From Pirellulales bacterium (GTDB taxonomy: Bacteria; Planctomycetota; Planctomycetia; Pirellulales; S012-138), in NCBI GenBank assembly GCA_028066245.1, contig JALCBR010000013.1:1-64000 (forward strand): a stretch of 64,000 nucleotides of DNA, read 5' to 3'. Position 1 is the first letter of the stretch. Every line of letters starts with the position of its first letter. Position numbers and translations under genes: made by a program. A model generated the notes under the pieces. The model was not told the DNA's origin and did not search any database. It was given only the letters and a program-made list of their open reading frames with translations. Shown here piece after piece: positions 3,408 through 64,000 of this stretch.

Positions 3408-5066
3408 ATGCGGCGCTTGAGCTTCATTTATCTGCTGAGTTTACTCTCGTTGTTACTGAGCGCACCGTCCGCATTTGGCCAACCTGTGAGGTCAGTGCGG
3501 GAGAGTTTGCAGTCGATGCTTGCGCAGGCCGATATCATCGTCCTTGGTGAGGTGCAAGGCATCGAGGCGATTGCGCGAAGAGGTTTTTGGCAGGTCGAGC
3601 TAAAAGTTCACGAGACCCTCCAGGGTGAATGTCCTGAAGTGGTTACGTATATCTGCAATGACGAAGGGCAACTGCCGGAGCGAACCGGAGAATCACTCTT
3701 CATGCTCAAGCGCAGTCCTGGCAGGTATTTTCAAGGAGGAAATCGTCATCGCTACTTGACGCGTCACCCCTGGAGTTGCCACCGGGTGATCAGTTTCGAG
3801 AAGAACGAGACACTTCTGTCTTTTGATGAGCGCGGACTGGTCGATGTCGCCGGGCGTGCAGCAGTGCTCGATGTAGCCCGTCATTACGTCAAACACAGGC
3901 AGCAAGACCCGCCCGCCCAGGTGGTTGAAGTTCTGGAGCAAACCGCAGCCGCAGTTCCCGGTTGGGGGCCATCGGTTGCGATTCCGCTTGACGCTCGTTT
4001 ATGGTCGACGGCGGAGATTTGGGAGCTCCAGGGTGGGAAAGCTGCTGCGGCTGCGGCAAGCGTGAAGGAGAACGTGACGAAGATCATCGGCTATGAAGCA
4101 GCGAAGGAACAATATGCTCTGCCGCAGCAAGTGCCAACACAACGCCGCTGGGCAAATATTCTCTCCTTGGATTCTCTGGAAACCATGGCCGCGGATTGCG
4201 ACTTGATCGTCCGCGGAGAAATCGACGATCTCACGCTCGTTCAGCTTGGCCGCGAGACCAAGGACAATTGGGAAGAGGCTCTGGACATGCATTTTGTTCG
4301 GCTGCGTGTTGAGGAGTCCCTCAAGGGAACCGCAGGCGAGACAATCAGTTTCTATGTGGAAAATGGCGGTCCACTCAGCGCATGGCAGGAACAGGGAACG
4401 CAAATTGTTGTTTTTCTGCGAGACCGCTTCTTTTTGAAGACCGTTGATGGGACACACCTGGGAACAAAACCTCCGTTCGGCTCGCTCAACGTGCTGAGAT
4501 ATTCGGCACGTGCTCCCGGAGTCCACGGTTTGATTGCACTCGGTGAATCGCACCCCAAGATGTATTCCTCAAGCCTGGAATGGCTTGAGGATCCCATTGA
4601 GATGACAGGCGTTGTCCGTCAGTATTTGAACGAAGTTCCAGCAGCAGGTCAGTCGGGAGTGCTCGCGACAGGAAGATTTCGCGACTCGCTCGTGAGGAAA
4701 GTCCCTGGGCTTGACTTCTCGCCAAAGGCTTTCCTGGCTGACACGCGGTGGGAGGACGTACCCAATCATCGTCACCTGCGGGTGAACTTTCCTATCGACT
4801 CCAACTTGGAGAAGCGGGCAAAGCAGTGGGTGACGTCACCGGACAAAACCCACAGATGGCTAGGTGCGTATGCCTTGCTCTACTTCAAATCGCAAGAGAA
4901 TGTGGAGATCCTCAAGAGTCTGCTTGATGGTGAAGGCCAATGGGATCAACCGGTTAAAGTGGAGGGGCTGGGCTTTGACCCCAAGCGATACCTCGTCCGC
5001 GCCGAGGCTTGGCTTACGCTGACCGCCTGGGGCTATCACGTGGAACAGCCGGAGTTTAACGATTGA
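3408..5066 (+). CDS. secreted hypothetical protein with internally duplicated domain
   Basis: Signal peptide MRRLSFIYLLSLLSLLLSAPSAFG from ATG 3408; long ORF. Confidence 0.75.
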   Translation: MRRLSFIYLLSLLSLLLSAPSAFGQPVRSVRESLQSMLAQADIIVLGEVQGIEAIARRGFWQVELKVHETLQGECPEVVTYICNDEGQLPERTGESLFMLKRSPGRYFQGGNRHRYLTRHPWSCHRVISFEKNETLLSFDERGLVDVAGRAAVLDVARHYVKHRQQDPPAQVVEVLEQTAAAVPGWGPSVAIPLDARLWSTAEIWELQGGKAAAAAASVKENVTKIIGYEAAKEQYALPQQVPTQRRWANILSLDSLETMAADCDLIVRGEIDDLTLVQLGRETKDNWEEALDMHFVRLRVEESLKGTAGETISFYVENGGPLSAWQEQGTQIVVFLRDRFFLKTVDGTHLGTKPPFGSLNVLRYSARAPGVHGLIALGESHPKMYSSSLEWLEDPIEMTGVVRQYLNEVPAAGQSGVLATGRFRDSLVRKVPGLDFSPKAFLADTRWEDVPNHRHLRVNFPIDSNLEKRAKQWVTSPDKTHRWLGAYALLYFKSQENVEILKSLLDGEGQWDQPVKVEGLGFDPKRYLVRAEAWLTLTAWGYHVEQPEFND

Positions 5067-5207
5067 GCAGCCACACGACGTCAGCTCGCCTCAGGTTCAT
5101 GCCATACCGTAAAACGGGGTAATACGCTATTTTGATCGGACGCTATCGTGCTACCGCAGTGGTCTGCATCTGGCGGTGGAATCTGAATTTGGCGCACTCA
5201 AGAAGCG

Positions 5208-6134
5208 ATGTTGAAGTTCATTGATCGGCTTGCGAAACTCGTGCAAACCAAGGGAAACGGCGTCTGCGTGGGATTAGATCCACGATTCGAAAGCCTGCCA
5301 AAGGAGATGCAAACGGGACGCGATCATGGACATGGCCAACGCGCCGCCGCGTACGCGGAATTCTGCAAAGCGATCATTGATGTCGTCTGCCCTTTGGTTC
5401 CGGTAGTCAAGCCCCAGTCTGCGTTCTTTGAAGCGCTGGGCCCTGATGGCATGTCAGCCCTTGCGGGTGTGATTTCGCATGCCACATCAAAGACTGGCGC
5501 CGAAGAATTGCTTGTCATTCTGGATGGCAAACGGAACGACATCGGTTCCACGGCCCAGGCCTACGCCGAGGCGTACTTGGGACGCAACTCCCCCTGGGGC
5601 GCGGACGCGTTAACGGTCAGTCCATACCTAGGTGACGACAGCCTTGAGCCTTTCGCTGCGGCATGCGACGCCAATGGAGCAGGCATTTTCGTGCTCGTGA
5701 AGACCAGCAACCCAGGCGGCGGAGATTTCCAAGATCAACTGATCCAGCAGTCTGCGGGAACGCTGTATCAAAGGGTGGCCGATGTTGTGGAAGCCCGGGC
5801 GAAGTCAACCAGCGGCGAATGCGAATACGGAGATATCGGTGCCGTGGTAGGCGCCACATATCCAGAGCAGCTTGCGGAGTTGCGGCAAGCGATGCCGCAT
5901 ACTTGGTTCCTGGTGCCTGGCTACGGCGCACAAGGCGGGGGAGCTGCGGACGTGGCCGCTGCTTTTGACAAGCGTGGTTTGGGCGCCGTCGTGAATAGCT
6001 CGCGGGGAATCATCTTTGCCCATAACAAGGAGCCGTATAAGACCTCGTACGGCGAGTCCCGCTGGCAGGATGCTGTCCGTGCCGCCACGGAAGACATGAT
6101 CCGGGATCTGCGGAGCGCGCTTCCGCATGCCTGA
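5208..6134 (+). CDS. pyrF: orotidine 5'-phosphate decarboxylase (type 2)
   Basis: VCVGLDPRFESLP, VVKPQSAFFEALGPDGM, VILDGKRNDIGSTAQAYAEAYLG. Confidence 0.92.
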   Translation: MLKFIDRLAKLVQTKGNGVCVGLDPRFESLPKEMQTGRDHGHGQRAAAYAEFCKAIIDVVCPLVPVVKPQSAFFEALGPDGMSALAGVISHATSKTGAEELLVILDGKRNDIGSTAQAYAEAYLGRNSPWGADALTVSPYLGDDSLEPFAAACDANGAGIFVLVKTSNPGGGDFQDQLIQQSAGTLYQRVADVVEARAKSTSGECEYGDIGAVVGATYPEQLAELRQAMPHTWFLVPGYGAQGGGAADVAAAFDKRGLGAVVNSSRGIIFAHNKEPYKTSYGESRWQDAVRAATEDMIRDLRSALPHA

Positions 6135-6900
6135 CGACGCTCTGGTGCAGAACTCCGGTAGACTCGCGACCATGTCCGAGCGGCCTCTGGTCGGTCGCGT
6201 GTATCTTAAGCTGGCGATTCTCCTGCTGATGGGTTCCGGGTTTGTGGTTGGATGGATCTTGTTGCGGGACCGGCTGGCGCTCAATCAACTTGTCGAATGC
6301 CAGCGGATGCTCTCGGAGTATGCCTGTAATGCGCCGTTTATGGTCTGGGGAGGCGCGTTTCTGCTTTATGTCGTGGCGACAGGCGTTTCGTTGCCGATTG
6401 GACCGCCGTTGAAAGTGCTCTACGGCGCCGTGTTTGGATTCGTGCCGGCGGTGATCCTGGTCAGCTTCGCCGCAACGTTGGGAGCCCTGATGGCGTTCAC
6501 TTCAAGCCGCTACTTGATAAAGACTTGGGTGCAAAACCGCTTGACAGGTCGGCTTGCCCGCGTCAATTCCGCGTTGGAACGCGAAGGATCATTCTACCTG
6601 TGCTCGCTACGACTGTTCCCCATTACACCGTTCTTCGTCATCAATCTGGTAATGGGCGTAACTCCCATGAGAGTTTGGACGTTCTGTTGGGTGAGTTGGC
6701 TTGGCATGTTGCCAATCACGTGCGCGTATGTGTTTGCCGGAGCCAGCGTCGATTTCAGCAAGATTGCTGAAAGCGGTATGACCGGACTGTTGAGCTGGCC
6801 GTTTGTCATGGCCTTGGCGCTACTGGCGGTTGCTCCGCTGGTGCTGCGGTTCTTGTGGCTGCGTTTTCGAGCCAGATTCCCTCAAGCCGCACGTCTGTAA
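6127..6900 (+). CDS. TVP38/TMEM64 family (VTT domain) membrane protein
   Basis: Multiple hydrophobic helices, SLPIGPPLKVLYGAVFGFVPAVILVSFAATLGALMAFTSSRYL; overlaps pyrF stop. Confidence 0.8.
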   Translation: MPDDALVQNSGRLATMSERPLVGRVYLKLAILLLMGSGFVVGWILLRDRLALNQLVECQRMLSEYACNAPFMVWGGAFLLYVVATGVSLPIGPPLKVLYGAVFGFVPAVILVSFAATLGALMAFTSSRYLIKTWVQNRLTGRLARVNSALEREGSFYLCSLRLFPITPFFVINLVMGVTPMRVWTFCWVSWLGMLPITCAYVFAGASVDFSKIAESGMTGLLSWPFVMALALLAVAPLVLRFLWLRFRARFPQAARL

Positions 6901-60974: not shown

Positions 60975-61048
60975 GCGCCCGTAGCTCAACTGGATAGAGC
61001 AGCGGACTTCTAATCCGCAGGTTGCAGGTTCGATTCCTGCCGGGCGTA
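60975..61048 (+). tRNA. tRNA-Arg (anticodon TCT)
   Basis: Cloverleaf: acceptor GCGCCCG/CGGGCGT, D-loop TAGCTCAACTGGATAGAGCA, anticodon arm GCGGA-CTTCTAA-TCCGC, T arm GCAGG-TTCGATT-CCTGC. Confidence 0.96.
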
Positions 61049-61053
61049 CTGAT

Positions 61054-62226
61054 CTAGCAATGGGTTACGTCGATTGCCTGTTGGCGAATTTGCTTAGTGG
61101 GACCTGAAATGGGACTTTTGTGCGCATCCTGAGACGCTTTGTACGCATCCCACAGCTGCCCGGCCATCTCATCGGCATCATGCCAGACGTAGAATCGCAA
61201 GCTTGTCTGAATGCTCTTGTGTCGCATCAGACGTTGTAAGACGGCCGGCATCACGCGCTTGCTCCAACGAGTGCCAAAGCTTCGCCGCAGATCGTGCGCT
61301 GATGCTGTCTTGCCGGGTCCCACGAGAACGCCTGCCTTCGAGCCGATCGCTGAGACCTTTCGTCCCGCAGCTTCCGCCGTCTCTACAGGCAACTCAAAAA
61401 CGGCGCCCGTTCGCTCCGCTTCGGGAGTCTCCGCCAAGAACAGAGCAAACTCTGGCGCACAGGGCCATAGCTCGGCTCTTTTGGCCTTCTGACTGCCAGC
61501 GCCGAACTTGAGAAAGGCGCGACCGTCAGGGCGTAAGACAGCTTGCAGCTCCACGTCCGGGTCCCACGAAAGCCGAAACGCTTCCGAGAGCCTGAGACCA
61601 GACCACCACAGTCCAGTGATGAATCGCTGCCAGGTCGCGGCGTCTTTACGGCCACTCTGGACAGACAGCATCCGCTCATACTCTTCGGCGGTGATCGCGC
61701 GCCCTTTCATCGTGTCATTGGACAACTTCGGCGGCGTGACCTTGGGCGTGAAAGTCAACAAACCGAGCGAATACGCCCACCGGAGCGCCGCTTTGATGTG
61801 ACGGCAGTTCATGGCGACCGTCTGATGGGATCTTGTTTTCTTGGTCCGCTCCGACTTCTCGGCTGCCAGCTCGGTAACGAACTTGCTGAGGTTTGCTGGT
61901 GTCAGGTCACGCAAGAACCTGGGCTTGAGGACGCGCTCAAGGTGGTCGAATGCCACGTCGTACGCATCGCACGTCCTCTTTGCTAGTCCGCGCCTGGCTT
62001 CCGCCTCGTGCCGCTGACGGAATTCATCCCACTTGATCGCATCTGGTGCGCAGCCGGCCCGGAGTTCCTTTTCCAGCTTGGCCGCGGCTCGCTCGGCTTC
62101 ACGACGGTTGACCGTCTTGGCTGATCGTTTGCGCACCTGACCTATGGAAGGATCAGTCCACCGCAGTTGCAGGAACTTACGCCCCTTCTCTGCGAGGACA
62201 TGGACATTGAGTTGGGTTGGAATCAT
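61054..62226 (-). CDS. tyrosine recombinase / integrase adjacent to tRNA-Arg
   Basis: ITGLWWSGLRLSEAFRLSW, SAHDLRRSFGTRWSKRVMPAVLQRLMRHKSIQTSLRFYV (R..HxxR..H..Y). Confidence 0.93.
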   Translation of the reverse strand: MIPTQLNVHVLAEKGRKFLQLRWTDPSIGQVRKRSAKTVNRREAERAAAKLEKELRAGCAPDAIKWDEFRQRHEAEARRGLAKRTCDAYDVAFDHLERVLKPRFLRDLTPANLSKFVTELAAEKSERTKKTRSHQTVAMNCRHIKAALRWAYSLGLLTFTPKVTPPKLSNDTMKGRAITAEEYERMLSVQSGRKDAATWQRFITGLWWSGLRLSEAFRLSWDPDVELQAVLRPDGRAFLKFGAGSQKAKRAELWPCAPEFALFLAETPEAERTGAVFELPVETAEAAGRKVSAIGSKAGVLVGPGKTASAHDLRRSFGTRWSKRVMPAVLQRLMRHKSIQTSLRFYVWHDADEMAGQLWDAYKASQDAHKSPISGPTKQIRQQAIDVTHC

Positions 62227-62234
62227 TTGCGTTC

Positions 62235-62777
62235 CTATTCTGAAGATGTGCTGACAACCGGCGGAAACGCATCAACATCCGTCGGCTTCGGCTCCGCGAG
62301 AACCTGGGGAGTTGGTGGTACGGTGCGGCGCGACAACCGGGCCACAAGCGCGCAAGTGACGTACAGAAGACGTTCAAGCGGCAACTTAAGTTCATCGTGC
62401 ATACGCAGCGAGTCTGCGTATATCTTCCACGTGTGAAGACCGTCAATAGCTTGTTGGTCATCGTCATCAAACCCGTCTGCTCTGAAGTCGTGAGCGCACC
62501 GATTTCGAATCTTGCGAATTGCGTGAAGGTCATCCTTCTCGTTTGCGGTAACCAAGCCAACGTCGTATGCCCTGTTGATCCGACCGAAGAAATCCTTGTT
62601 CTCCCCGGTGAGTTTGCCCAGCCGTTCGTCGAAGTACGCGGCTGCAACTATCGCTGCAACGCGTTCACCATGTCCTTCGAGAAACTTGGAAATCTCCACT
62701 AGATTTTCGTCTCCGGTAAATTTCATTGCTTCTCTCCAGGCTGGTGTCATGTGTCGCGTTTTCATCTTGCAAAGCAT
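62235..62777 (-). CDS. MltR-like / HEPN-fold-like helical protein
   Basis: DFFGRINRAYDVGLVTANEKDDLHAIRKIRNRCAHDFRADGFDD; start may be at a later ATG. Confidence 0.7.
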   Translation of the reverse strand: MLCKMKTRHMTPAWREAMKFTGDENLVEISKFLEGHGERVAAIVAAAYFDERLGKLTGENKDFFGRINRAYDVGLVTANEKDDLHAIRKIRNRCAHDFRADGFDDDDQQAIDGLHTWKIYADSLRMHDELKLPLERLLYVTCALVARLSRRTVPPTPQVLAEPKPTDVDAFPPVVSTSSE

Positions 62778-62884
62778 GCCCGCGGAGTTGCAACCCCGCA
62801 GGCAGTTTTCGTGGTCGTGGCATGGTTACCTCCCAGGGTTAAAGGTGTGTCCCATCTGAGTCAGCACTTGGTGAACGGTGACGG

Positions 62885-63433
62885 CTACGGTCGTTGTGAT
62901 GATGGCTTTCCTTGTTGCGCTCGTTCGACGCTTCGCGTGACGTACTGGGCCAGCCTCTTCGCTAGCCGTTCTGGATCGGCGGCGTCCAGCGTGATGGGTT
63001 TCACCGGGACAACGACCGGCTTCCATTGGGCGAACGCAAGGATTTGTTCAACCACCAAGACCACTTCCGGCCAGGTCTCATCGACCAGCACAACCAGCGG
63101 CGGAAACTGTCGTAGCGTCACGCCAGCTTCAAAGTCCGTCGCGGCTCTGTGCAGAGAAATTCCATCAGGCAGATGAACCTGAATCGCCTCGGCGAAGCCT
63201 GACTGCTGCGTCAGCATCAGGACGTCGGGGCTTTCTACTTCCACAGCGCCGGCAAACGGAATGCCCCGCTCACGTAGGAACGCGTGCACGTCACACCGGC
63301 GGAAGCGGTAGGGGTGGCCGGTCTTTGGTTTCCATGCGCGAAGCTTTCCCGACTTGGCCCAACTCTGGACGGTTCCCCAAGCAACGCACGCCATGCGTTG
63401 CACGTCGGCAGGCATCAGAACGTCTTCGTTCAT
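62885..63433 (-). CDS. HTH (MerR/BldC/excisionase-like) DNA-binding protein with C-terminal receiver-like domain
   Basis: ADVQRMACVAWGTVQSWAKSGKLRAWKPKTGHPYRFRRCDVHAFLRERGIPF then DVLMLTQQSGF...LRQFPPLVVLVDETWPEVV...KPVVVPVKP. Confidence 0.75.
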   Translation of the reverse strand: MNEDVLMPADVQRMACVAWGTVQSWAKSGKLRAWKPKTGHPYRFRRCDVHAFLRERGIPFAGAVEVESPDVLMLTQQSGFAEAIQVHLPDGISLHRAATDFEAGVTLRQFPPLVVLVDETWPEVVLVVEQILAFAQWKPVVVPVKPITLDAADPERLAKRLAQYVTRSVERAQQGKPSSQRP

Positions 63434-64000
63434 ACCACACCTCCCGAGATGACCGCCGGCAGGGGGACGTGGTAGACCTTACGGACCGCGGCCAGCTGGC
63501 TTTCGTCAAGATAGCTGTTCTCGGTCGTCCTTCGGGACGTGTGCATGAGCGCCGCTGTCGCATCCATGCCAGCCAGTTCAATCAACGTGGCGTAAGTCCG
63601 GCGGCATTTGTGAAACTTGTTCTGGCGAATGATCGGCAATCCAGATCGCATCAGGACCCTGTCGTAGCGATTGTACAGCGTTGATGCGGTCCAACCCTGA
63701 CCGAACATCAGCTCAGCATCAGGGTCAATCGTCCGCATCCATTTGAGCGGAATGCGAACATGATCCCGCAGCGTGTAAGTCGCTCGTTTGAATCCGCCCT
63801 TACGAATTTCTGCCGGGACGTTAAGGACGCCTGATTCTTCGTGGTAGTGATCCCAGCGAACGGCCAACGTCTCACCAATCCGGGCGCCGGTCTCCAGCAG
63901 AAACAGATGCAGCGTGCGCCACCACAGCGGGCCGGGATACTTGCCAACCGGGAGATCTTCCTTGGCAATAGCGTCAAACAGCTGCTTGAGTTCGTCGGCT
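63430..64000 (-). CDS. second tyrosine recombinase, C-terminal part (truncated by window edge)
   Basis: Frame open to window end: LHLFLLETGARIGETLAVRWDHYH...FHKCRRTYATLIELAGMDATAALMHTSRRTTENSYLD; ATGA overlap with HTH gene. Confidence 0.88.
   Translation of the reverse strand, partial: ADELKQLFDAIAKEDLPVGKYPGPLWWRTLHLFLLETGARIGETLAVRWDHYHEESGVLNVPAEIRKGGFKRATYTLRDHVRIPLKWMRTIDPDAELMFGQGWTASTLYNRYDRVLMRSGLPIIRQNKFHKCRRTYATLIELAGMDATAALMHTSRRTTENSYLDESQLAAVRKVYHVPLPAVISGGVV

Follow-up and report, generated by a model that had tools for sequence, protein, structure and literature searches.

The window analysed here, a stretch of 64,000 nucleotides, carries at its right end an integration module in which a HEPN gene lies between recombinase genes. 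The order on the minus strand is int2, an HTH_17/excisionase-like gene, the HEPN gene and int1, followed by a tRNA-Arg(TCT) gene. The features are as follows.

60975-61049, plus strand: tRNA-Arg (TCT), the integration target (ARAGORN)
61005-61052, plus strand: attL core, 48 bp, repeated exactly on contig C120 (10082-10129, minus strand)
61054-62226, minus strand: tyrosine integrase int1 (Pfam Phage_integrase, PHROG 1)
61096-61117, plus strand: putative arm-type integrase site, AGTGGGACCTGAAATGGGACTT, repeated on C120 at 21 of 22 positions
62235-62777, minus strand: HEPN gene of DUF4145/MtlR type (ORF, Pfam, AlphaFold2, Foldseek)
62665-62823, minus strand: small ORF of 52 aa, MPRPRKLPAGLQLRG..., with a strong Shine-Dalgarno sequence, GGGAGGTAACC-ATG
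62849-62908, no strand assigned: 60-bp segment, 97% identical to a second element of the same genome (repeat comparison)
62885-63433, minus strand: HTH_17/excisionase-like regulator, 182 aa (Pfam, PHROG 66, NCBIfam BldC-like)
63430-64000 within the window, minus strand: int2, the second tyrosine recombinase; the contig holds the whole gene, up to 64374

The integration module and its attachment sites

The contig ends at 64433, past int2. The int1 stop codon lies 4 bp from the 3′ end of the tRNA, and most of 29 further loci that encode an int1-like integrase have a tRNA near it, which marks int1 as a tRNA-targeting type. Another int1-like integrase of the same genome, on contig C139 (14131-15246), lies beside tRNA-Ile and tRNA-Pro. 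The start of the HTH gene overlaps the int2 stop codon, and the gene lies 107 bp upstream of the HEPN ORF; its HTH_17 score of 26.9 bits is just under the cut-off of 27.0. The encoded protein joins an excisionase/BldC-type HTH to an unassigned C-terminal half, and proteins similar to its residues 9-120 were present in 144 of the 147 genomes searched.

The attL core consists of the 3′ part of the tRNA-Arg gene plus 3 bp, and its copy on contig C120 is not accompanied by a complete tRNA. The C120 copy of the arm-like 22-bp sequence lies approximately 100 bp from the attR core. One flank of the C120 att site holds type II secretion genes that are conserved in relatives; encoded on the other are a DnaB-like helicase, a head maturation protease of ClpP type and a tape-measure protein. 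Given the att repeats and the phage genes on C120, the right end of the window most probably holds one terminus of an integrated phage. The window contig and C120 appear to carry a single element, a join made through the att and arm repeats only, and too little gene order is conserved there for an empty-site comparison with relatives. Judged from the sequence, the HEPN gene is part of a prophage whose integration site is tRNA-Arg(TCT).

Counted from its first ATG (62777), the HEPN ORF encodes 180 aa. At codon 18 (62726) stands the earliest in-frame start preceded by a Shine-Dalgarno-like sequence (CCTGGAGAGAAGCA-ATG); no other early ATG has such a sequence (GGAGAG), and for this reason the true protein is probably a 163 aa form starting at ATG 62726. 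This is approximately the size of the nearest relative (167 aa). The 52-aa small ORF overlaps the HEPN start in a different frame; it could be vestigial, or serve as a leader or antitoxin. The HEPN stop codon lies 8 bp ahead of the int1 ATG, just as the sequence-only reading had reported, and from this spacing only we infer that the HEPN gene and the integrase may be co-transcribed. No promoter or terminator scored above shuffled sequence.

Family, fold and motif of the HEPN protein

The Pfam family DUF4145 (PF13643) matches the HEPN protein at 26.2 bits, against a gathering cut-off of 23.1, and the matches that follow are mostly to other HEPN-type families, each below its own cut-off. Both DUF4145 and MtlR are counted as HEPN families in a published survey (PMC3710099). 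The MtlR family, PF05068, gave no match to the window protein at E<=1; 38 of 48 aligned relatives match it at E<=0.01, and 26 of the 48 match DUF4145. The window protein was unmatched by PADLOC. The gene is a new example of an already known protein family.

Relatives were sparse in single-sequence searches: a set of 197 related genomes gave one, and a phylum sample of 392 genomes gave one; phage and plasmid records contained no direct relative, and single-sequence scans of viral and genome contigs yielded no HEPN relative. A profile built from three sequences went further, to 58 loci in bacterial genomes and nine in viral contigs. The nearest relative, from the Planctomycetales MAG HKST-UBA47, shares 33% identity with the window protein, and in both the stretch joining helices 2 and 3 is shorter by approximately 19 residues than in the rest of the family.

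The AlphaFold2 model of the HEPN protein, computed for the monomer, is an all-helical bundle with a mean pLDDT of 82.9 and a core that is mostly above 90. R91-H96 lies at the end of helix 78-96, a placement that agrees with the published description of HEPN proteins, in which Rx4-6H, its R followed by a polar residue, closes helix 3 (PMC3710099). The leading Foldseek matches in the PDB were MtlR (6kcr, 3brj, 3c8g), HepS (9oij) and HepT toxins, with weak E-values (best 0.017), TM scores of approximately 0.5 and probabilities up to 1.00. When a profile of 48 relatives was compared with structures, the matches were MtlR 6kcr (5.5e-7), MtlR 3brj (1.4e-5) and HepS 9oij (0.046). The predicted structure, in matching MtlR, HepS and HepT, agrees with the HEPN fold that had been suggested for this protein.

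The motif-bearing peptide of the ORF, LHAIRKIRNRCAHDF, includes IRKIRNRCAH, and the R-N-x3-H motif to which the sequence-only reading had drawn attention is present as R91-N92-x3-H96 (numbered from ATG 62777). When the protein was shuffled, 55% of the copies contained the loose pattern R-polar-x(2-5)-H, 7% contained R[NDH]x3H and 0.2% contained RNxxAH. Because chance occurrence is so frequent, the motif by itself is weak evidence for HEPN, and its use as proof was dropped; the HEPN call is carried by the fold and by conservation among relatives, not by the motif alone. R91, N92 and H96 are invariant across the 48 aligned relatives, a count biased by a search pattern that contained the motif, so that the perfect conservation is partly built in. 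For an unbiased test, the motif was replaced by X in 18 members and the resulting profile was run on the 392 phylum genomes. Matches were found in nine genomes, and eight of the nine, the window protein included, retain RNxxAH or a close form (RNKVAH, RNSYAH, RNCYAH); the motif is lost in the remaining one. R and H are thus conserved among homologues, and the earlier assignment to an MltR/HEPN-like family, with a possible role as toxin or defence effector, was sound, the family being supported by Pfam, fold and motif conservation.

Variable cargo and the neighbourhoods of relatives

At 29 sister loci with an int1-type integrase the HEPN gene was found in none, and integrase-like matches near the 67 HEPN relatives numbered at most two, weak and inconsistent, one of them borderline. 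A conserved integrase-HEPN operon is ruled out by these results. The gene had been described as embedded in the integrase operon; its absence from the sister loci identifies it instead as prophage cargo, not a constant component of that operon, and implies that the integrases do not need it. Relatives are patchily distributed in the phylum (9/392 genomes), and those in IMG/VR contigs adjoin terminase, major head/capsid, tail, lysis (spanin) or primase genes. Among the loci of the 67 relatives, no neighbour recurs between unrelated loci beyond a few isolated pairs, which argues against an obligate partner or an MNT antitoxin.

The 60-bp segment at 62849-62908 recurs at the 3′ end of the recombinase operon of a second element in the same genome, and marks one edge of the variable cargo position. 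The second element, of approximately 10 kb, spans contigs C110 (20782-24222) and C7 (1-6791), running from tRNA-Gln, on C110, to the corresponding att copy, on C7; on account of this copy, C7 is probably part of the C110 element. Its recombinases differ, its int1-type integrase is damaged, and the HEPN position is taken by a different kind of ORF on the opposite strand. An exact 55-bp segment upstream of its recombinase operon is common to the window element. As the 55-bp and 60-bp segments flank unrelated recombinase genes, they suggest that recombinase modules have been exchanged between the two elements. The 55-bp repeat is common to C175, C110 and C7, which makes the assembly ambiguous, and a join of C175 to the next contig was dropped.

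Proposed function and alternative explanations

Known systems offer several points of comparison. The Tha-1 and Tha-2 proteins of prophages 80alpha and phiNM2 are likewise HEPN proteins with R-N-x3-H encoded in a prophage integration/lysogeny region, and close to the Tha gene there is a small gene that was annotated as xis for a long time (PMC11087260). Tha, encoded in the lysogeny region of staphylococcal prophages, is a HEPN RNase whose motif includes R265 and H270; protection is lost in the H270A mutant, and Tha is held in check while its own phage is induced (PMC11087260). Defence of the Tha type also involves activation by a phage tail protein, protection from phage and a dedicated inhibitor. 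Tha is, however, approximately 301 aa long, with some 180 residues before the HEPN domain, whereas the window protein is a single domain of 163-180 aa, and no sequence relation between the two was detected. HepS of Salmonella Gifsy-1 (9oij), also a prophage HEPN protein, was the second-best Foldseek match (probability 1.00), but its profile match is weak and it shares only 17-19% identity with the window protein, at a TM score of approximately 0.45; our literature search found no paper naming Gifsy-1 HepS with which to make a functional comparison. The HepT-MntA system (5yep, 7ae6) has the HEPN fold and Rx4H in common with the window protein, but the MNT gene is missing beside the window gene. 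DUF4145 is a HEPN family tied to defence loci (PMC3710099), though the window gene has no restriction or helicase fusion.

The reading we prefer, and to which we give an even chance of being correct, is that the gene product is a HEPN endoribonuclease of DUF4145/MtlR type that stands alone and is competent for catalysis, and that the gene is cargo of a prophage integration module and acts in abortive infection or superinfection exclusion. The protein would dimerise with itself, and R91 and H96 of both subunits would together build an active site that needs no metal. The protein would be produced at a low level with the integrase operon and be inactive at first, until a competing phage or other stress served as the trigger. 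The activated protein would cleave host and/or phage RNA to leave 2′,3′-cyclic phosphate ends, and the ensuing growth stop would protect the lysogenic population by abortive infection or superinfection exclusion, a mode of action that Tha has and HepS presumably shares. An inhibitor is something we infer in the same way as the RNase activity, the dimer, the target, the trigger and the exclusion of phages. A caveat to the catalytic reading is that some members of the MtlR family, regulators included, keep R and H.

The main rival is a regulator of the MtlR kind, a non-catalytic protein that would bind RNA or a partner protein and so tune the integrase operon or the lysogeny decision, an explanation that we regard as unlikely but deserving of attention. 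MtlR structures are the best fold and profile matches of the HEPN protein, most relatives match PF05068, and the gene is placed between the recombinase/HTH operon and int1; MtlR itself represses the mannitol operon, and is a repressor for which DNA binding in vitro was not found (PMC3710099, PMC6763467). In the profile alignment, E. coli MtlR keeps R and H within R-E-E-L-N-H, with E in place of N92. The motif is, however, missing from Vibrio MtlR and 3brj, unlike the masked-profile matches, eight of nine of which keep R, N and H. Nor does the window protein itself match PF05068, and no mannitol genes accompany it, its neighbours being recombinases and the HTH gene; the sister integrases, moreover, manage without it.

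The next rival, which seems to us improbable, is a toxin-antitoxin (addiction) module of the prophage in which the HEPN protein is the toxin and either the HTH protein or the 52-aa ORF neutralises it. Both candidates are close at hand, the HTH gene 107 bp upstream and the small ORF, with its strong Shine-Dalgarno sequence at 62823, overlapping the HEPN start, and HEPN toxins are paired with antitoxins in HepT-MntA. A HEPN-MNT pair was nevertheless dropped, as the adjacent genes scanned gave no nucleotidyltransferase (MNT) match; no conserved partner lies beside the 67 relatives, and the HTH protein resembles widespread BldC/excisionase-type regulators. Less probable still is a decaying or neutral passenger without present function. 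The great divergence of the protein, the lack of close copies in the databases searched and the missing loop of approximately 19 residues would fit such a passenger, but the frame and motif are intact, a Shine-Dalgarno sequence is likely, the fold is confidently predicted, and the loop deletion is common to the RtcB-linked relative. If the gene were only an ordinary DUF4145 passenger, the finding would be routine. Prophage HEPN RNases have recently been shown to guard Staphylococcus lysogens, and the structure of a Salmonella prophage HEPN protein has been solved; under the endoribonuclease reading, a divergent planctomycete case would extend prophage HEPN RNases to a phylum with little-known phage biology.

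The gene for the nearest relative has the same orientation as rtcB and begins 39 bp downstream of it (Planctomycetales MAG HKST-UBA47, 4205-6208), a linkage seen at this single locus. RtcB seals RNA ends of the kind left by metal-independent RNases (see PMC7790460). It is possible, from gene order, that rtcB and the HEPN gene of this relative form an RNA damage-repair pair. A broader proposal, which we consider very unlikely, is that the loop-lacking branch formed by the window protein and this relative makes RNA breaks that RtcB can repair, that prophages borrow the enzyme, and that the host RNA ligase decides recovery. In Salmonella, the one Gifsy-1 HEPN gene tested was dispensable for activation of an RNA-repair operon (PMC9879122). 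The position of rtcB beside the nearest relative provides a testable clue to the cleavage chemistry.
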